DNA of 45,688 bases from a virus. Below, piece after piece: positions 17,402 to 33,616 of this stretch (position 1 is the stretch's first letter; each line of letters opens with the position of its first letter). The DNA lies in the IMG/VR virus record IMGVR_UViG_3300030329_003991, positions 3,036 to 48,723 of that record, one strand, 5' to 3'. The position numbers and the translations under genes were made by a program. Below the pieces are notes generated by a model that saw only the letters and a program-made list of their open reading frames with translations, did no database searches and was not told the origin of the DNA.

Positions 17402-17775
17402 TCTTGTTCCTCTAGTTTTGGTGGTAGTCTATCTAATGTTTTCTTTTCATATGTATCTTTAAGAGATGATTGTTCATCATGGTTAGTGACCATTTTAACA
17501 AAGTACTTTATATTATATCCCTGCTCTAGATATCCACGGTTTCTGAACATGTCTATCATTCTATATAGTATATCGTCGTCTATATTTTTTATTTCATTTA
17601 ATAAGTAATATATATCCACTTCCCTTACTGATCGTACATTATCCATATCAATGAGTAGCTTTTCTATAGACTTTAAAGACTTTATAGAACGAGACATCTT
17701 TAATATATCTATTTGATTAGCAAAGCTTTTTTCTTCGAAAGTACTACTACATAATGGGCATTTTATTTTCTTCAT
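17398..17775 (-). CDS. Small zinc-motif protein upstream of the helicase
   Basis: About 125 residues. The start is placed at the ATG overlapping the upstream stop (TAATG) rather than the ATG 12 bases earlier. It opens MKKIKCPLCSS, a single C-x2-C pair, followed by a helical domain with DNVRSVREVDIYYLLNEIKN. It couples to DnaB through ATGA. A short protein translated with the helicase suggests a helicase loader, replication accessory or winged-helix protein. No family is recognised. Confidence 0.6.
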   Translation of the reverse strand: MKKIKCPLCSSTFEEKSFANQIDILKMSRSIKSLKSIEKLLIDMDNVRSVREVDIYYLLNEIKNIDDDILYRMIDMFRNRGYLEQGYNIKYFVKMVTNHDEQSSLKDTYEKKTLDRLPPKLEEQE

Positions 17776-18563
17776 TATAATCCACAAAATCCTTCTTCAC
17801 ACATAAATAACTCTTGCTGATCTGCAAATTCAACATCATCTATATGTACGCATGAACTGTGTAGGTACACCCCCCCTTTTCCCTTTCCTCTATCTATTAA
17901 GGAATTTCTTATGCTCTCATCTATTTCTATTATCTTACCCCAACTCTCTTTGTCATTATCTTTTATTTCTTTCCATCCTTTATTGCTATGATATGGACAG
18001 AATACGCATGCAGATTTAGGTGGTATTGGGAATGAATGTTTTTCAAATACTTTTATACAATCTTTACGCTCTAGTCTACTATCTATTAATGGATATCTAT
18101 ATGTAACACGAGGCATTGTTGATGTTTTCATCCTCTCTATCTCATCCAAGCTTATACCTAACCATATCTCTGTCATTGGCATTCTATACTTAGGTTTCAA
18201 TCCATATATCTTCCTTATGCTTTTTATTACAGGTCTTATTTTATAATGATTAGTACATTGCCTTCTAAGCATACCTGTTTTATTTGGATTATCTACAAAA
18301 GCTGGTATACCTGCAAACCTACTAGTTTTATCTTTATCTAGTAGGTCTTCATATAGATTCATTTCATCTGATACTATTATCTCTATACCGTTATTATCTT
18401 TAGCCCACTTCTTTAGTATGTCTAGTATCTCATATGTTCTAGGTAGTTCAGCACCTGGGTCTGCAAATATAGCGTAATCAGCTCTATCTATTTCCCCAAG
18501 AGAACTCATTATATACATTGCAGTACTTTGCACACCTAAGCCTAGGCTTATAACTTTCATCAT
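17775..18563 (-). CDS. PAPS-reductase / adenine nucleotide alpha-hydrolase-like protein
   Basis: About 262 residues from the ATG overlapping the upstream TGA (an ATG nine bases earlier is also in frame). The N-terminus VISLGLGVQSTAMYIMSSL is a PP-loop variant of the ATP-pyrophosphatase family, and DYAIFADPGAELPRTYEIL follows as in PAPS-reductase-like phage enzymes. The CTNHYKIRP and ACVFCPYH phrases give Cys residues that could bind a metal or Fe-S cluster. PAPS-reductase-like proteins act in sulfur transfer, in DndC-type DNA phosphorothioation and in nucleotide modification. The substrate here is unknown. Confidence 0.78.
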   Translation of the reverse strand: MMKVISLGLGVQSTAMYIMSSLGEIDRADYAIFADPGAELPRTYEILDILKKWAKDNNGIEIIVSDEMNLYEDLLDKDKTSRFAGIPAFVDNPNKTGMLRRQCTNHYKIRPVIKSIRKIYGLKPKYRMPMTEIWLGISLDEIERMKTSTMPRVTYRYPLIDSRLERKDCIKVFEKHSFPIPPKSACVFCPYHSNKGWKEIKDNDKESWGKIIEIDESIRNSLIDRGKGKGGVYLHSSCVHIDDVEFADQQELFMCEEGFCGL

Positions 18564-19012
18564 GTCTTGCATGTATCACATTCACCTTCTTGAAGTCTAA
18601 CTCTATTAAATATACTACCAGGAAGCTTTTCATACATCCCGCTTAGTCGAGTATTATAATGCCTATGGAATGCATTTTTACAACCTTTACATCTAAATGG
18701 TTTATTAGGAGTTCCTTCCCATCTTATTCTAGATGACTCAGACATCTTGGCGATAGTATCTTCCTCTGGACTAAACCACTCTTCATCAAAGTAATATTTT
18801 AATGTTTCAATCTCTGCTTCAACTGCTCTTCTAGCATCCTGCTCGTATTCAGTAAGCGTTCCTCTGAATCCTAGCTTCCTTCCTCCGTTTCTTTTATGTA
18901 TTGTAGTAGGGTCATTAACTGATCCATTGGCATTATAGCGTATATTTCGCCTCTTGACTCCTTTACCAATTGAAGGTGTGATTCCCCTACCTGTTCCGAG
19001 GGCTTCAACCAT
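18560..19012 (-). CDS. Zinc-ribbon protein overlapping the resolvase gene
   Basis: 150 residues if the only canonical in-frame start (ATG 19012) is used. That overlaps the resolvase gene by 142 bases in another frame. The N-terminal 45 residues are basic and Gly-rich, the middle is helical (TLTEYEQDARRAVEAEIETL), and a C-terminal zinc ribbon has FRCKGC near residue 106 and ECDTCKT at the end. A strong GGAGG-type ribosome site lies at the end of the resolvase gene but no ATG/GTG/TTG follows it in frame, so the true start is uncertain. Likely nucleic-acid binding. Confidence 0.6.
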   Translation of the reverse strand: MVEALGTGRGITPSIGKGVKRRNIRYNANGSVNDPTTIHKRNGGRKLGFRGTLTEYEQDARRAVEAEIETLKYYFDEEWFSPEEDTIAKMSESSRIRWEGTPNKPFRCKGCKNAFHRHYNTRLSGMYEKLPGSIFNRVRLQEGECDTCKT

Positions 19013-19881: not shown

Positions 19882-20054
19882 TTACTTTTCCTCTTTTTAT
19901 TTTTTATTGTTATCTTTCTCCAATCAGGCACTACACCATCCTTATCAAAATATTTATCTTCATCAGTATTAGATTGCTCTATACAATTATGACAGAGCCC
20001 TATCCTGTTACTAGTAGGCTGATCACACTCATGACAATGGAATAACATAGGCAT
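19878..20054 (-). CDS. Small zinc-finger protein (58 residues)
   Basis: It starts at the ATG overlapping the methyltransferase stop (TAATG) and ends in ATGA with the next peptide. Cys pairs FHCHECD (C7, C10) and LCHNCI (C21, C24) form a compact zinc ribbon, and the C-terminus is very basic (ITIKNKKRKSK). This architecture fits a small nucleic-acid-binding regulator. Double coupling to neighbouring genes makes it very likely real. Confidence 0.6.
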   Translation of the reverse strand: MPMLFHCHECDQPTSNRIGLCHNCIEQSNTDEDKYFDKDGVVPDWRKITIKNKKRKSK

Positions 20055-21313
20055 TACTTCAATCTCCTTGCTATCTCTGCTACTACAGGTACGCTAACTG
20101 CGTTACCTAACTGTTTATATCTTTGTGTATCAGATATGTTAACCTCATTACCATTAGTATCTATACCCTTAGTAGTCCAAAGGTCTGGAAAGCCTTGTAA
20201 TCGCTCACATTCCAAAGGAGTTAGCCTTCTTATATGTGGCCCACTCTCAACATAAGCTGAATAGTTAGTACCATATTGCTTAGAAGCTGGTAGTGTAGAA
20301 CAAATTGCTTCCTGGGTATGTACAACCCCTCCCTGCTTATCATGTATCCTATATTTAGTAGGCTTTTCAGCTATAGTATATTGCTGCATACCTGTATCTA
20401 ATGTTTGTGCTTCTTTCTTACCAACTCTTCCACGCCTAGTCTTACTATTAGGCACAGCTAAGTTAATAGAATCTCCTTCTTCTGCTACTGCATATCCTTT
20501 CTTGGTTGCTTCTGGTACTTTGACCTCATACAATCCTGTCTTAGAACCCATACCACCACCATTCTTTATGGTTCTTGAAGTACCTGTTATATCATACACC
20601 CTAGTTGCTTCACTGTCTTTACCTACAGTTCCTATTTGTTTAAGACCTGTAACTACATAGGTTTCATTACTAGCATGAACACCTTTTCTATAATCAGCAG
20701 TTATTGTTGTACTAATTTTACTGACCTTCCCCGATCCTCTGCTCTCTCCAAGTATCGTAGAGCTTTTTCCGATAGGAAATACTTCTGCTCCACCTCTGCT
20801 TCCAAGATGTCCGATAATATATATCCGCTCTCTATTTTGGGGTAGAAACCAGCGAGTATTGAGTAGTTGACACTCAACGGTATAATCAAGGTCGGTAAGA
20901 ATTCCGTAGATCGTAGCAAATGTTCGTCCACGATCGTGGTTAAGTAGACCTTTAACGTTTTCGAGTACAAAGTAAGGGATTGGTTTTTCAACTCCTCTGA
21001 AATATCTGAGAATCCTCGCGATTTCAAAAAAGAGAGTACCTCTGGTGTCATCAAAACCTTTTCGTCTTCCAGCCACGCTAAATGCTTGGCATGGAAATCC
21101 TCCAGAAAGGATGTCAATGTTATCTGGTAAATCTCTTTCGGGTCGAATAGTTGTAACATCTTCTAACTCCTCAGCGTTGGGATAGTTATATCTATAAACA
21201 GACTTAGCATACTTATCTATCTCTGAATATCCTACCCATTCAAATTCATATCCTGCTTCTTCAAAGCCTTTATGGAATCCACCTACTCCACTAAATAAGT
21301 CTAGTAGCTTCAT
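20054..21313 (-). CDS. DNA C5-cytosine methyltransferase
   Basis: 419 residues with the ordered C5-methyltransferase motifs: I DLFSGVGGFHKGFEEAG (5-21), IV GGFPCQAFS (71-79, nucleophile C75), VI ENVKG (118-122), VIII QNRERIYIIG (159-168), a variable target-recognition region about 190-340, and IX/X PLECERLQGFP...QLGNAVSVPV at the C-terminus. It transfers methyl from SAM to cytosine C5. No cognate endonuclease is adjacent, so it is an orphan enzyme likely protecting phage DNA from host restriction. A role in priming further base modification is possible but unproven. Confidence 0.93.
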   Translation of the reverse strand: MKLLDLFSGVGGFHKGFEEAGYEFEWVGYSEIDKYAKSVYRYNYPNAEELEDVTTIRPERDLPDNIDILSGGFPCQAFSVAGRRKGFDDTRGTLFFEIARILRYFRGVEKPIPYFVLENVKGLLNHDRGRTFATIYGILTDLDYTVECQLLNTRWFLPQNRERIYIIGHLGSRGGAEVFPIGKSSTILGESRGSGKVSKISTTITADYRKGVHASNETYVVTGLKQIGTVGKDSEATRVYDITGTSRTIKNGGGMGSKTGLYEVKVPEATKKGYAVAEEGDSINLAVPNSKTRRGRVGKKEAQTLDTGMQQYTIAEKPTKYRIHDKQGGVVHTQEAICSTLPASKQYGTNYSAYVESGPHIRRLTPLECERLQGFPDLWTTKGIDTNGNEVNISDTQRYKQLGNAVSVPVVAEIARRLK

Positions 21314-23420: not shown

Positions 23421-23647
23421 GCTTCTCCTCCTTCACTTTGTGAAAGTATCTCGAATAAGCTCTCATCCTCTTCTGCTAAGGTACTAGCGTACTCTAACTT
23501 ATCTTTAAATCCCTTGAGTTCCTCTTCTGGATTAGCTACTACATGCATCAAGTTGCTTAATGCTATCTCTAATTGAAGTACTCTAAAGTCTAACATCGAG
23601 ATTTCTTTCCTTAAATTAGTAGGTTTTTTATTTCTCTTTACACTCAT
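23417..23647 (-). CDS. Small hypothetical coiled-coil protein
   Basis: 76 residues from the ATG that overlaps the upstream stop as ATGA; a longer frame begins 45 bases earlier inside the previous gene. It has a basic N-terminus (MSVKRNKKPTNLRKE), a Leu-rich helix and an acidic tail. It lies between the nuclease and the annealase genes, so it may help recombination. No family is recognised. Confidence 0.5.
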   Translation of the reverse strand: MSVKRNKKPTNLRKEISMLDFRVLQLEIALSNLMHVVANPEEELKGFKDKLEYASTLAEEDESLFEILSQSEGGEA

Positions 23648-24525
23648 ACTATACCTTCTTTTACATATGGACAAACATCTCTTACGTCGCAATAGCTTTT
23701 ACACTTATTGCCTCCCCATCTCTCTTCTTCATTACACATATCTGGTAACTCTTTAAATTCTAATGCATGTAATAGTGCATCTCTCTTTGTAAGAAATTTT
23801 TCTAATAGGTGATCATCGTGTATCAAGGGAACTTCTACTAGATATATGTTCTGATTAACACCTCTAGATGTAGCTACCTGCACACCACCATCTCTAACTG
23901 TGGCTTGTATAAACATCTTTTCTACGGGATAACCATTTTGTTCTAGTAGGTATCTATAGAAGTTAAGTTGCCACTTCCAATCTCCAAAATCTGCCTTCTC
24001 AGGATCATTGTAAAATACCTTTACCTGTTTAGGAGTTCCTCTCTTTCCCCACTTTCCACTTTTCCTATATACTTCAGTAGGATGATTGTCTGTATAATAT
24101 TGTATACCTAATAATTGTACTATCTTATATGAGCCTACATTTTTATAGTCTATAAGATGTTTTTCCTTGGAATCATATAGGTCTAATATACCTGTTATTC
24201 CTAATTCTTCTAGTTTTAGCTCTGATTTTAGATGGCTAACATCTTCTGCTGCTGTCTCTAACTTTAAATGATGTAGAGTACCTGCAAGCGAGAAAGCATT
24301 GCCTTGTGGATTAATATAATAATCTTCTGTTCTTTGTAGGTAAGCCTGGCATGTACCACTTAATAACTCTGTTGTAGATGGCTTCCTATCAGGATCTCTC
24401 TGTTGCGACATATGTATTAAAGTGGGTAGAGTTATTCCCATCTTCTCTACATCTACATTACCCTTATGAATATCTTTTATACTTACCTTATCTCCATTAG
24501 GATATTTAAAACCTTTTAATGGCAT
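23644..24525 (-). CDS. Cas4/RecB-type PD-(D/E)XK nuclease with predicted Fe-S cluster
   Basis: 293 residues. Nuclease motifs in order: GTLHH (82-86), ITGILDLYD (110-118, D115), LIDYKNVGSY (124-133, D126 and K128) and WQLNFYRYLLEQNG (185-198, Q186/Y190). Cysteines C59 near the N-terminus and C275, C279, C285 near the C-terminus (KCKSYCDVRDVCP) reproduce the 1+3 Cys arrangement of the Cas4/AddB Fe-S cluster. It probably resects DNA ends for the Rad52-like annealase. There is no CRISPR array or other cas gene, so a phage recombination role is preferred. Confidence 0.82.
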   Translation of the reverse strand: MPLKGFKYPNGDKVSIKDIHKGNVDVEKMGITLPTLIHMSQQRDPDRKPSTTELLSGTCQAYLQRTEDYYINPQGNAFSLAGTLHHLKLETAAEDVSHLKSELKLEELGITGILDLYDSKEKHLIDYKNVGSYKIVQLLGIQYYTDNHPTEVYRKSGKWGKRGTPKQVKVFYNDPEKADFGDWKWQLNFYRYLLEQNGYPVEKMFIQATVRDGGVQVATSRGVNQNIYLVEVPLIHDDHLLEKFLTKRDALLHALEFKELPDMCNEEERWGGNKCKSYCDVRDVCPYVKEGIV

Positions 24526-24713: not shown

Positions 24714-25925
24714 TTAATTACTAAAGTATTCTCTTGCTGTGTTACGATACTCCTCCCAATAAGGCATATGAGGATTATCTGAAAACATGATAGTTCTCTC
24801 TACTATGTAGTCAAATACTTCTCTATCTATACCTATCATCCTACGCATTACAGAGAGTCTACTTCTATCCGCAGAACCCTTGAGAAAGAAATCTCTATGC
24901 TCCCACTCATCATCCCTTGATAATTTTATACCAGTCTCTACTATAGATTGACATATCCTAATCCAATTACTTATCTTCCTTTTGTTAAGAGTTCCTGAGT
25001 GATATCTAAACTCTATAGTTCCTAGATAGTATCTAGCATGTATATTTAATCCTGTATATCTAGCATCATTGTACTTATCCGTAGATGGACTACTACCTGC
25101 TGCTGAATACCATTCTGATATAAAATCACCTTCGCTATCTATACGTCTAAGGCTATCTAGAGATAATGGTACAGGTCTACACCAGTTAGAATTTTTTCTG
25201 CTAGGAGGCATCATCTCATATATATATTTTTCTACATATGTATTTACTATTGCTATTGATACTAAATCTTTCCAGGTAGTATCGGTGGCATCTATGTGAA
25301 CATGTAATCCACAGCTCCTATTAACTCTTCCATAATATTTATAAGACCAATTTATAAGATTGTTTATAGTTTTATATAAATTAACTCCATTAGATGGTAT
25401 AGATACCCACTCAACAGTTTCATGATCTTCTATTCTATTTATACTACCATCAGATGTAAATCTCCAATTTTCTGGGTGTTCTAAATCCCCCGTATCTACA
25501 TATAAACATTCAGCTTCTATACCTACTAACCTATCTTTACAATGCTCATCTGGATTAGAGGTAACTGTAATTGAAGTTGGTTTATTCTCCATTACAACTT
25601 CTGGGCCATCATGATTTTCATAGCAGTACTCGCAATAATATTCATCACCAACTCTAAAAGCGTATTCAAAATAAGCAGTATCTCCACAAGCCTCGCACCA
25701 AAATCCAACATCATTAAAACAATCTTCACAATAATGACTATCATGTATACAGGAGGTATGCTCCCAATAGACATTATCACTACATCCATCACATACTTGG
25801 TACTCATCATTATTGCATGTAGAGCATATATTACCATTTACTGATGAATGACTCTCTTCTACATCATTGTGTTCATCATGACAATGCCAACAGGTAAAAC
25901 CTACAGGTTTTCTCTCTTCACTCAT
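24714..25925 (-). CDS. Zinc-finger amidoligase 1 (COOH-NH2 ligase fold)
   Basis: 403 residues. Residues 12-101 hold Cys pairs (C12/15, C34/37, C45/48, C66/69, C77/80, C98/101) forming a tandem zinc-binding array. The catalytic domain is amidoligase_2-like: GIEAEC (135-140), a CGLHVHID metal/nucleotide motif (205-212), RYTGLNIHARYYLG (289-302) and TIEFRYHSGT (303-312). Such enzymes use ATP to join a carboxyl to an amine. This is one of two amidoligases flanking the glutamine amidotransferase. The substrate is unknown; the zinc array may bind nucleic acid or protein. Confidence 0.82.
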   Translation of the reverse strand: MSEERKPVGFTCWHCHDEHNDVEESHSSVNGNICSTCNNDEYQVCDGCSDNVYWEHTSCIHDSHYCEDCFNDVGFWCEACGDTAYFEYAFRVGDEYYCEYCYENHDGPEVVMENKPTSITVTSNPDEHCKDRLVGIEAECLYVDTGDLEHPENWRFTSDGSINRIEDHETVEWVSIPSNGVNLYKTINNLINWSYKYYGRVNRSCGLHVHIDATDTTWKDLVSIAIVNTYVEKYIYEMMPPSRKNSNWCRPVPLSLDSLRRIDSEGDFISEWYSAAGSSPSTDKYNDARYTGLNIHARYYLGTIEFRYHSGTLNKRKISNWIRICQSIVETGIKLSRDDEWEHRDFFLKGSADRSRLSVMRRMIGIDREVFDYIVERTIMFSDNPHMPYWEEYRNTAREYFSN

Positions 25926-25934
25926 TATACTCTC

Positions 25935-26243
25935 CTATGAAATGCCAGTATAGGTGCTCATCACACCTATTAGTAGGCTATTAAAAACTCTTATCCAGCC
26001 AATATCTTTTAAGCATCTATACAATTCATCCTCTATGTTACTACTATTAACATCTTTATCTATTTTCTTACCGCCAAGTTGCTCTATTTGATCTTTTAAG
26101 AACTCTAAATATTGTTCATAACTATGCTCAGAGAGAAAGGGATTTTTCTTAGCTCTCTTATACAAAGTCTCTATTACATACTTCTTAGACTTAAAGCGAA
26201 CAGGATTCGGTAATCCTAAGAGTAGGACTTTCTTTTTTGACAT
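25935..26243 (-). CDS. Hypothetical protein between amidoligase 1 and the amidotransferase
   Basis: 102 residues, starting at ATG 26243 after a perfect AGGAGGT ribosome site inside the amidotransferase gene (53-base overlap). It has a basic N-terminus (MSKKKVLLLGLPNPVRFKSK), a helical middle and a C-terminal hydrophobic run. No family is recognised. Its location inside the amidoligase block makes it a candidate accessory or substrate protein. Confidence 0.55.
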   Translation of the reverse strand: MSKKKVLLLGLPNPVRFKSKKYVIETLYKRAKKNPFLSEHSYEQYLEFLKDQIEQLGGKKIDKDVNSSNIEDELYRCLKDIGWIRVFNSLLIGVMSTYTGIS

Positions 26244-27417
26244 TATTACCTCCTAATAGTGTTTCTTTAGCATGAGGTTCGCAATCTATACATACTCCAA
26301 AGCCAGAGCAGGTGGTCATATCATCTTCATCTACATACTCATCACACCAACCACACTTTACTACTTCACCTCCATCTATACAGCTGGTACATACATAGCA
26401 AAACTTATCGTATGTCCATTTTAATTCAGAAGCGGTATATTCCTTCTCACAATACTCACAGTCACTTACAACAACTCCTTTTTCATCAATTCTATGTTCT
26501 GGAGTAGAGTATTCATTATCTGCTTTCCAGCAGCTATAACACATATCATCTTTATACTCAACATCTCCACAGCCAACACAGTAATCATCATAGCCTTGTA
26601 TGTAATTAGAACTACTATCTGTACATCCAGTTGAAGTAGAGCCGTTATATGCTCCATATACACCGTACTTATTATAAGATGAGTATTGACTTACTGAATA
26701 GAAATCCACATCTTCATAGTATGGCTTACTATCGAATTTATCTGTATCAAATGTAAATATCTTATCTGCTACCACTTCTTGCATAGATATATTAAGACCA
26801 GATCTCTTAAGTGCTTGTTCCATTATTTTTTCAGTAGATGCCCAGAATAAAATCTTAGCTCTCTTCCAATAAGCTACACACATTGGTCTATTATCTTCTC
26901 TAGCTAGGTGTATTACTTTGTTGCTATCCTTTACCCAGGTAACTGCAAAGTCTCCATCTATATCCGTAAATGCATCTTCCATCTTATTCCTATTAAGAGA
27001 TGCAAATATCACCTCCGAATCCACTTGTACATCCTTACCCATAGAGTTTGCTATCTTATTGTAATTATAGATAACTCCATTATGAGCTCCTACAACTTCA
27101 CCTATGGTAAAAGGGTGTGTATTCCTTATATTAATAACTCCATGTGTAGCTAGTCTGACATGACCTATTACTATAGTTGTATCTCTACTAACATCCCCTA
27201 AGAGGTTATCCCATTCTTTAGAATGGACTAAAGTGGAAGAGTCAGATAGAGACTTGTAAGTCTTTCTAGTATTTGGAGTCATAACTGCAAACCCAGTACT
27301 ATCTTTACCTCTTACAGAAGATTCATCAGCTAGATTAGTTAGGACATTCCTAAGAATATCTATCTGTCTGTCATTTTGGCTATTATGCTTCTTAGCGAAG
27401 CCAAATATTCCACACAT
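26191..27417 (-). CDS. Class II glutamine amidotransferase with a C-terminal zinc-finger array
   Basis: 408 residues. The N-terminal Ntn-type GATase is complete: nucleophile C2 in MCGIFGF, RGKDSTG (36-42), GHVRLATHG (85-93), NTHPF (99-103), AHNGVI (111-116) and DSEVI (133-137). It should release ammonia from glutamine. No synthetase domain is fused. Residues 265-380 carry at least five Cys pairs (CVGCG, CYSC, CEYC, CYVC, CGWC, CIDC), matching the arrays in both amidoligases. It probably feeds ammonia to one of the ligases. Start ATG 27417. Confidence 0.85.
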   Translation of the reverse strand: MCGIFGFAKKHNSQNDRQIDILRNVLTNLADESSVRGKDSTGFAVMTPNTRKTYKSLSDSSTLVHSKEWDNLLGDVSRDTTIVIGHVRLATHGVINIRNTHPFTIGEVVGAHNGVIYNYNKIANSMGKDVQVDSEVIFASLNRNKMEDAFTDIDGDFAVTWVKDSNKVIHLAREDNRPMCVAYWKRAKILFWASTEKIMEQALKRSGLNISMQEVVADKIFTFDTDKFDSKPYYEDVDFYSVSQYSSYNKYGVYGAYNGSTSTGCTDSSSNYIQGYDDYCVGCGDVEYKDDMCYSCWKADNEYSTPEHRIDEKGVVVSDCEYCEKEYTASELKWTYDKFCYVCTSCIDGGEVVKCGWCDEYVDEDDMTTCSGFGVCIDCEPHAKETLLGGNNVKKESPTLRITESCSL

Positions 27418-27440
27418 ATTATCTCCTTTTAGTTATGCTA

Positions 27441-29471
27441 CTATTCGTAGCTTTTTATTTTATCTTCAATATATTTTAGAGCAGATTTGCCCCCTATATT
27501 TTTTATTACATCAAGTCCATGTTCATCTCTTAAGACCATGTCCTTAATTCTTTTCCATTTCTTATCATTACGCTCCAAGTTCTTTGCAGCTACCATTATT
27601 CTATTACATAAATGAATCCAACTCATTACAGGAGCTGCAGATATAGAACCTTCATGATACCTAAATTCTATTGTTCCATGAAAGAACCTGGAGTGTATAT
27701 TGGTACCTCTATATCTAGAGCCGTTGTACCTATCTTCTCCAGGATCAACATTAGATAACTCCCTATAGGAGAAGTTAACTAATTCTCTTAAATTATTTAT
27801 AGATTTATATATATGTTCATTACCTAGTGAACTACCATAGTCCTTATCTATTACTTTACAATACTTACTATCTCTTCTAATTTCTGGTAGAGATTGAATA
27901 ATTGGAGCTTCTACACAGTTTATTATCATTAGTAGGCTTCTTAGTTCTCTCCATTTAAAATCTCTAGCATCCATATGTACATGAATACCGCAGCTACTAT
28001 CTACCCAAAAGTCTTGATCTTTGGAGGCATTTTCAAGTTGAAGTAAACCAACCTCTATATAATCACCTCTAACTGGCCTTATATTCTTAAATTCTACTCC
28101 ACCATCATTTAGGGAAGCATCATTTACAACTCTCCAATTTCTTGGAGCCCATACTTCATCTTCTGGGTGTACATCTTCATGAAAGTCATGGTAGGTCATA
28201 ATTTCACTCTCTACACTTACATATCTATTAATATTATGCGTATTGGTTGTAAAGGGAAAAATATCTTCTATAATATCAAAGCCGTTAACTGGTGTAGCTA
28301 TACTTTGCCCTAGAGTTGTATCATAGCAGGTAGTGCATAGAATCATTCCATTATATCTATCGCAATCATGAATTAACTCATCATATGCTGAAGTTATATA
28401 ATCCCAGCCCTGTCTAAGAGCTTCCTCTAAATTTATAATAGAGGTATTATTACATCTATTACACGATAAGAATATATGGTCTAAACAGTTATTACATACA
28501 TCAGTAACTCCAGTTTTTAATAATAATTTTTTAACTGCAGTAAATCTATCTCCCTCAAATATATCTCCTGCGAAATGCCTCATAAATCTACTATTGTTGC
28601 AAAAATTACATTCTCTCTCAGTAGAAACGGCACAACTACCACAATAATAGACATCTTTATAGTAATTAACTTTTGAATAATTATGCTTATTAGTAGCTAC
28701 TCCACAAGTATGACAATTATATCTATTACTCATTATAGCTTTATGACAATTTCTATAACAATTTTCTATATATTGAATTACTCCAATTGGAATATCTCCA
28801 AAATCATCATAACAATCTATTTGCATATCTCCTTTTGGAGTTCCAAACTCGTATTTAGTATCAATTATATCTAGGTACCTATTTATAAATCTATTATTGG
28901 TCTTATAATAGGTCATATCACTAAATCTATCTATATAACTATAATCTCCTAAATAATCAATATCATTATAATACTTGGAATGACCTCGCATGAAATTACC
29001 TTGTAGACCAAAATTAAGTCTACCATATGTATCTGCACAACCATCTGTTATCATAAAATTATACTCTATGATCATCTCTCCAGTTCCATCTTCAAATTCA
29101 GTTCTTTTGTAGATAGAATTTACACCTGGCCGAGGAACTAGGAGCATAATATCTTCTATCCTAGTAGCAAACATTATATCGTTATCTTCAATAGACCTTA
29201 GAATTATATTTGGAATCATTATATTTCCAATCTCAATATTAGCTACATATTCAATAACTCCAGCTCTACCAGCTCCCTTACGAGTAACAGCATCAAGACC
29301 TGTAGAAACATTATTTACTTTCTCTTGATCTTCTGGGTGAGTAGCAATATCTCTTAAGGATGTTGTAAAGTCATTACAGTAGTTATGTAATGATGCACTA
29401 TTTTCTGACTCCCTCCATGAGTAAACTCTAGAAGTTCCTAAGATATAAGCCTTATCTCCAATTAAAGACAT
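27441..29471 (-). CDS. Zinc-finger amidoligase 2 with a large N-terminal extension
   Basis: 676 residues. Residues 1-240 are of unknown fold. A Cys-rich array at about 253-382 has CHTC (253-256), CGSC (277-280), C288/C291, C326/C329, C337/C340 and C379/C382. The amidoligase domain follows: VESEI (420-424), CGIHVHMD (494-501), RYRGTNIHSRFFHG (586-599) and TIEFRYHEG (600-608). The order of domains mirrors amidoligase 1, but with a larger N-terminus, so the two could act on different partners or form a complex. It overlaps a 50-residue peptide gene upstream by 20 bases. Confidence 0.8.
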   Translation of the reverse strand: MSLIGDKAYILGTSRVYSWRESENSASLHNYCNDFTTSLRDIATHPEDQEKVNNVSTGLDAVTRKGAGRAGVIEYVANIEIGNIMIPNIILRSIEDNDIMFATRIEDIMLLVPRPGVNSIYKRTEFEDGTGEMIIEYNFMITDGCADTYGRLNFGLQGNFMRGHSKYYNDIDYLGDYSYIDRFSDMTYYKTNNRFINRYLDIIDTKYEFGTPKGDMQIDCYDDFGDIPIGVIQYIENCYRNCHKAIMSNRYNCHTCGVATNKHNYSKVNYYKDVYYCGSCAVSTERECNFCNNSRFMRHFAGDIFEGDRFTAVKKLLLKTGVTDVCNNCLDHIFLSCNRCNNTSIINLEEALRQGWDYITSAYDELIHDCDRYNGMILCTTCYDTTLGQSIATPVNGFDIIEDIFPFTTNTHNINRYVSVESEIMTYHDFHEDVHPEDEVWAPRNWRVVNDASLNDGGVEFKNIRPVRGDYIEVGLLQLENASKDQDFWVDSSCGIHVHMDARDFKWRELRSLLMIINCVEAPIIQSLPEIRRDSKYCKVIDKDYGSSLGNEHIYKSINNLRELVNFSYRELSNVDPGEDRYNGSRYRGTNIHSRFFHGTIEFRYHEGSISAAPVMSWIHLCNRIMVAAKNLERNDKKWKRIKDMVLRDEHGLDVIKNIGGKSALKYIEDKIKSYE

Positions 29472-32999: not shown

Positions 33000-33290
33000 A
33001 TGAAGTTAGTAATAGGTGGACATGATTATGACATAGTAGAGATGCGTGATCAAACAAAGGATGGGAAAGACCTTTTGGGTTTACATGACCCTAAATTAAA
33101 TACTATCTCATTAGATAGTGATATGGCTAATACTAGAAAGCATGAGACCTTATTGCATGAAATAGTTCATGTGATACTGATGAATGCTGGGTTTAGCGAC
33201 CACGATGAGAGTTTGATAGATGCTATATCAAATGGATTTTTACAACTTGGAGTAGGAGAGTTTGTATGGAAAAAAGCAAAAAGCTCATAA
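33000..33290 (+). CDS. Small zincin-like metallopeptidase (HExxH)
   Basis: 96 residues from ATG 33000 after GGAGAGAGA; another in-frame ATG at 32979 is less likely. TLLHEIVHVIL (50-60) gives the HExxH zinc motif (H53, E54, H57), preceded by PKLNTISLD strands, as in ImmA/SprT-like phage metalloproteases. The third ligand is not obvious (D65-D67 or E68). Possible roles: cleaving a host repressor or processing a phage protein. It overlaps the next gene by 25 bases. Confidence 0.65.
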   Translation: MKLVIGGHDYDIVEMRDQTKDGKDLLGLHDPKLNTISLDSDMANTRKHETLLHEIVHVILMNAGFSDHDESLIDAISNGFLQLGVGEFVWKKAKSS

Positions 33291-33616
33291 TAGACCAATG
33301 TGAGAGGGATTTCCCACAGAGCACTACAGAGTTTCGCAGTGTTCTTGAGGAAATGTATGAGTTATTCGCTAAGAAGCAGAATGATTATGGGCCTGGTAAT
33401 ATAGCCATGGGAACTATGTTAGAGACAGAAGAAGAGATTCGTATGAGTCTTATGGGTATAATAGTCAGGATGAATGATAAAATAAATAGATTAATAAACC
33501 TTGTAGTTAAAAAGAATAAAGAACCTGAGAATGAGTCAGTTATTGATTCATTCATAGATATTGGTAATTATTCTGTTATGGCAAGAATATTATTGGAAAG
33601 AAAATGGGGAAAATAA
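33266..33616 (+). CDS. DUF1599/Nmad1-like nucleotide-modification-associated protein
   Basis: 116 residues. AKKQNDYGPGNIAMG (35-49) and GIIVRMNDKINRLINLVV (64-81) followed by ESVIDSFIDIGNYSVMARIL (90-109) match the phage DUF1599 pattern, named nucleotide modification associated domain 1 because of its gene neighbourhoods in modified-DNA phages. It is all-helical and MazG-like in feel, with acidic residues that could bind metal. This supports, but does not prove, a modified-base pathway here. Confidence 0.65.
   Translation: MEKSKKLIIDQCERDFPQSTTEFRSVLEEMYELFAKKQNDYGPGNIAMGTMLETEEEIRMSLMGIIVRMNDKINRLINLVVKKNKEPENESVIDSFIDIGNYSVMARILLERKWGK

Follow-up and report, generated by a model that had tools for sequence, protein, structure and literature searches.

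A four-gene phage cassette of two zinc-array amidoligases, a class II glutamine amidotransferase and a small orphan protein, and its probable amide-forming chemistry

Four adjacent genes of an uncultured phage probably encode a glutamine-fed, ATP-dependent amide-forming machine, the substrate of which is most likely not a DNA base. They lie in a 45,688-nucleotide stretch of IMG/VR record IMGVR_UViG_3300030329_003991 (hereafter the window, meaning the whole stretch analysed; the record has a further 3,035 bases not included in it). The chemistry class is fairly secure and rests on sequence and fold.

Organisation of the cassette

All four genes are on the minus strand, in the order AL2, GAT, X, AL1, with reading frames that overlap or abut. 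AL2 (27441..29471, 676 aa) has an N-terminal region of ~240 aa, three tandem CxxC units (residues 253-382) and an Amidoligase_2 domain (~411-676). GAT (26191..27417, 408 aa) consists of a class II (Ntn) glutamine amidotransferase domain (residues 1-~230) and three C-terminal CxxC units, and its reading frame overlaps by 53 bases that of X (25935..26243, 102 aa), an orphan protein encoded between GAT and AL1. AL1 (24714..25925, 403 aa) carries three N-terminal, LIM-like CxxC-x17/18-CxxC units and an Amidoligase_2 domain (148-328). The first-pass annotation had described two amidoligases flanking a class II glutamine amidotransferase, with zinc modules N-terminal in AL1, central in AL2 and C-terminal in GAT; the coordinates of these three genes, their enzyme families and the placement of the modules were all borne out, and X, which is coupled to AL1, was added as a fourth cassette gene. 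A PD-(D/E)XK exonuclease-like recombination gene (23644..24525, minus strand; PF12705, 6.9e-6) follows downstream as a backbone neighbour outside the cassette, and was present in 37/42, 12/14 and 9/10 related loci of the types AL2-GAT-X-AL1, GAT-X-AL1 and GAT-AL1, respectively.

Catalytic domains

Both ligases matched Pfam Amidoligase_2 (PF12224) well above its curated cut-off of 22 bits (AL1, 92.6 bits, E=4.6e-26; AL2, 78.9 bits, E=7e-22), and GAT matched GATase_6 (E=5.8e-18) as well as GlmS/PurF. Each protein was aligned with its relatives, using 16-19 diverse sequences per alignment. Invariant residues were E137, E139, E172, H208, H210, E305, R307 and H309 in AL1 (relatives at 26-42% identity to the window protein), and E421, E423, E460, H497, H499, E602, R604 and H606 in AL2 (23-29% identity), so that the acidic (ExE), HxH and ExR motifs of glutamine synthetase (GS)-like carboxylate-amine ligases are kept in both, and would correspond to the GS ligands. 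In GAT, C2, R88, N113, G114 and D133 were invariant across 16 sequences (30-52% identity), and the class II glutaminase set of N-terminal Cys nucleophile, Arg, Asn-Gly and Asp is complete. GAT-II-like Ntn domains may also have other gamma-glutamyl or amide bonds as substrates.

The predicted model of the AL2 C-terminal domain has a GS-like fold, with YbdK as a match (Z 12.5, rmsd 4.0, 231 aligned), and further matches to plant glutamate-cysteine ligase (Z 12.1), glutamine synthetases (~10) and Dop (9.5). The N-terminal ~240 aa of AL2 are weakly conserved and poorly predicted, and profile comparison found no relation between this region and GAT, X or the ligase. When ligase domains were placed in a tree, the AL1s and AL2s of the lineage each formed a group of their own, distinct from other phage amidoligases, with three AL2s falling near the AL1 group; the deeper branching is unsure because the branches are long. 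These sequence relationships are consistent with an origin of AL1 and AL2 by duplication within the lineage.

Zinc-type modules

AL1, GAT and AL2 contain 6, 6 and 7 CxxC motifs against 0.68-0.75 expected, and none of 20,000 residue shuffles reached these counts. In the AL1 of the window the motifs recur at strikingly even intervals (18, 7, 17, 7, 17, with Cys throughout); AL1 proteins typically have three CxxC-x17/18-CxxC units with seven residues between one unit and the next, and AL2 has three with longer loops. The units are putatively metal-binding, as judged from motif and fold. The AL1 profile matched LIM-containing PDB chains (best E=1.6e-4), one Omnitrophota ligase lies at the Pfam LIM cut-off, and at least one phage protein among the structural matches is already labelled 'LIM domain containing protein'. 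The canonical LIM arrangement (double-finger spacing, two residues linking the fingers and a His as third ligand) was not found in the AL1 array, which is LIM-like only. LIM domains are mostly macromolecule-binding.

Profile alignment by hhalign related the AL1 array to the AL2 array with good probability (93%, E 3.6e-7), and gave marginal matches for the GAT units (41%, E 2.8e-4, to AL1; 16% to AL2), so that a module common to all three proteins, as first proposed, holds for the two ligases and is marginal for GAT. The number of GAT units also varies by clade: the window GAT has three, GATs of the GAT-X-AL1 clade have two, those of the X-less GAT-AL1 clade have none, and those of AL2-bearing loci have one in 28/42 and three in 11/42. 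The absence of CxxC units from GATs of the GAT-AL1 clade indicates that a shared zinc dock is not essential, and the suggestion that all three proteins bind the same partner is weakened by this variation and by the marginal profile matches. A C-terminal CxxC pair is also present in GATs of the known phages FBPa8 and QDWS535.

The small protein X and its coupling to AL1

Relatives of X were found in 56 distinct phage loci, and in IMG/VR it was never seen without GAT or AL1 or both; where the set is partial, the contig or locus ends within it. At its N-terminus the family conserves a basic stretch, and it also has an NPF motif. X had no match in Pfam, PHROG or NCBIfam, and no significant relative in named phages (best E 0.9). 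Its predicted model (pLDDT 66) contains helices at residues 20-32, 42-57 and 70-80, forming a three-helix core (block pLDDT 76-88) with disordered ends that make conserved flexible tails; a fold search with the model gave no significant match.

A codon-level comparison of the 56 loci was made for the Shine-Dalgarno-like TAGGAG of AL1 (25926..25941, minus strand), which in the window makes use of the TAG that ends X. In many relatives the AL1 Shine-Dalgarno-like site is formed by the last X codons (ATA GGA GTC), so that the conserved GV ending of X mainly reflects the ribosome-binding site of AL1, a sign of translational coupling. X was also considered as a tag like Pup, with a conserved Gly at its C-terminus; as the GV ending is largely this ribosome-binding site, the tag is kept only as the remote reading given below. 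Loci in which the AL1 site follows or spans the stop retain a weaker [GA]-I-[AST] tail. Ligases of the X-less clade (L247, L248, L250, L255 and similar) have a conserved C-terminal extension of ~190 residues. Fusion of X into these long ligases was likewise rejected, as hhalign found no relation of the extension to X.

Distribution among phages

Scanning IMG/VR with AL1 yielded 28 relatives, and profile scans with X, AL2 and GAT added more; a single-sequence AL2 scan returned no relatives, and an alignment-based scan found some. After loci with identical proteins had been merged, 42 distinct loci had the order AL2-GAT-X-AL1, 14 had GAT-X-AL1 and 10 had GAT-AL1, the last with a longer ligase in nearly all. 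Catalytic motifs are invariant in the aligned relatives despite low identity. The co-conserved operons that the first-pass annotation proposed to look for are thus present with a fixed gene order, and what that annotation had named as telling against it did not appear: the motifs of the amidoligase domains are conserved, and synteny is kept in related phages. Its proposal of an amidation or conjugation pathway agrees with the families, the intact catalytic motifs and the conserved synteny, though the pathway may simply amidate rather than conjugate.

The cassette loci have common surroundings (terminase, exonuclease, p22216-like, helicase and other genes), and this one backbone around all cassettes indicates one uncultured phage lineage. 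Since the X-bearing cassettes all come from it, their linkage is partly shared ancestry. The first 20 kb of the window had no DNA-level match to named phages, and the terminase has ~26-28% identity to the best among the matches listed. Two contigs, IMGVR_UViG_3300030101_002855 (L050/L055, 64 kb) and IMGVR_UViG_3300030708_000851 (L096/L101, 80 kb), each carry two separate X loci, and are possibly two related phages joined in assembly. A DUF1599 gene is common in the backbone of AL2-less relatives (12/14 and 10/10). A PAPS-reductase-like protein is encoded at 17775-18572 of the window (minus strand; phrog_424, 1.9e-35) and is rare among relatives; this gene and a C5-methyltransferase gene were rejected as pathway members, as neither is co-conserved. 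PADLOC found no defence model.

A related pair beside conjugation genes in Omnitrophota

A pair of zinc amidoligase and GAT was detected in two Omnitrophota genomes by profile scan, and in 6/285 when whole Omnitrophota genomes were searched, the former two included. In the loci examined the ligase, with 3-4 CxxC units, adjoins a GAT with one C-terminal unit (L177, L178, L271-L276; the contig of L272 ends before GAT). The pair thus resembles the window in having a zinc ligase beside a GAT with CxxC, and differs in its order (AL then GAT) and in having neither X nor AL2. Where the flanks are long enough, the neighbourhood includes a type IV secretion (T4SS) coupling protein, PC4, RadC and a replication-relaxation-like gene, and the setting looks like an integrated conjugative element. 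The zinc-bearing pair is not phage-only. Near the pair, L178 (10047-12775) carries patatin-like, nucleotidyltransferase-like and E2-like genes that by eye resemble CBASS, and L275 (3644-5294) an AbiEii toxin-like gene (PF08843, 1.1e-35) with a probable partner.

Comparison with known systems

That amidoligases and GATs are paired in phages is established, and a 2009 survey by Iyer et al. was reportedly the first to link the two families. The combination is documented in LUZ24-like phages (PMC3890496) and in OM43 phages, where both amidoligase and GATase are reported (PMC10580990), and, second-hand through the latter paper, in phiEco32 and Marvin. LUZ24-like and phiEco32-type cassettes (COOH-NH2_lig PF14395, Amidoligase_2, GATase_6, ATP-grasp, GGCT) resemble the window in that an early operon holds Amidoligase_2 beside a class II GAT or close to it, and in some such phages in a C-terminal CxxC pair of the GAT; unlike them, the window has two Amidoligase_2 paralogues with zinc arrays, and X. 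Neither ATP-grasp nor COOH-NH2_lig (PF14395) was found by Pfam or PHROGs in window ORFs of at least ~200 aa, nor was GGCT, the gene for which could be shorter. The pairs of Arthrobacter phages Ottawa and Salgado, like those of OM43 phages, bear a likeness to the window; in Ottawa amidoligase and GAT are adjacent, as here, but the ligase is without a CxxC array. PafA/Dop, YbdK, glutamate-cysteine ligase and glutamine synthetase have the GS-like carboxylate-amine ligase fold in common with AL2 at about 8-14% identity, and the window adds zinc arrays and a dedicated GAT partner. In the literature searched, no experimental characterisation of PF12224 was found. Within the searches made, the paired zinc-array ligases, the X family, the four-gene order and the pair beside conjugation genes appear to be undescribed.

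Proposed mechanism and alternative substrates

GAT would hydrolyse glutamine and pass ammonia to a ligase, which would activate a carboxylate as an acyl phosphate and then form the amide. The LIM-like zinc arrays may keep the enzymes assembled or dock them onto a macromolecule that serves as substrate. X, whose gene occurs only next to GAT/AL1 and is translationally coupled to them, may act in the complex as adaptor, regulator or substrate, and AL2 may be an AL1 duplicate now serving a second carboxylate or acceptor. The most likely substrate would be a carboxylate carried either by a protein or by a peptide precursor of the cell envelope, and not a DNA base.

Cell-wall modification, in which the cassette would amidate or remodel peptidoglycan stem-peptide precursors (for example, as a superinfection block), is a function proposed for phage amidoligase/GAT cassettes (PMC11945000), among them phages with amidoligase, GAT, ATP-grasp and GGCT, including phiEco32/LUZ24-like ones (PMC10580990, PMC11945000), and it gains from the CxxC pair likewise found in FBPa8 and QDWS535. 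It is nonetheless rather unlikely here, given that no ATP-grasp or GGCT domain was detected in the larger window ORFs, that the LIM-like arrays suggest a macromolecular partner, that the cassette sits among recombination and replication genes, and that the pair is also found beside conjugation genes. About as doubtful is a role in small-molecule metabolism, with GAT and amidoligases acting as auxiliary metabolic genes that make an amidated or gamma-glutamyl metabolite: among solved structures, YbdK and glutamate-cysteine ligases come closest to the ligase fold, and a role in nitrogen and amino-acid metabolism was proposed in the ZRK32 phage paper (PMC10945688), but soluble enzymes of metabolite synthesis seldom carry tandem zinc arrays or have a small partner dedicated to them, and no co-conserved biosynthetic neighbour was seen among the genes tested.

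Amidation of phage DNA at a base that bears a carboxyl handle is a distinctly improbable reading, even with a precedent in the CmoA/CmoX/CmoY 5-carboxymethylcytosine pathway, where CmoY acts on the modified base and some ligases carry a glutamine-hydrolysing domain (PMC12783734). That system is like the window in its ATP-dependent amide ligation in a phage, and the window has a C5-cytosine methyltransferase (20054-21313, minus strand; PF00145, 6.8e-71), a match to DUF1599, 'Nucleotide modification associated domain 1' (33266-33616, plus strand; 5.3e-6), and a cassette positioned in a replication operon. Yet CmoY is asparagine-synthetase-like, a ligase of another fold, and the methyltransferase is ordinary, with GGFPCQ (PCQ) and Asn (GNAV) instead of the CmoX hallmarks (an SPPC motif and Arg350, with CmoA alongside). 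It occurs in 6/14 GAT-X-AL1 loci, and the available stretches of the 42 AL2 loci showed none. With SPPC/Arg350 missing and no CmoA seen, a CmoX-type carboxymethylcytosine route is not supported in this genome. It would be an equally long shot, suggested by analogy, for X to be the dedicated substrate, tag or adaptor of a pupylation-like phage protein modification, in which the two zinc-array ligases would act on X with GAT-derived ammonia or an amine, and the pair would be a host-takeover or anti-defence tool common to phages and conjugative elements.

Implications

Amidoligase_2 is widespread in phages, and this lineage has a compact, strictly ordered four-gene version of the glutamine-fed machine proposed above, together with a module that is probably for docking and X, a partner protein of its own. 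The occurrence of the pair beside conjugation genes suggests an interaction between mobile element and host, rather than the metabolism of one phage, and the conserved zinc arrays may serve as handles for identifying the target.
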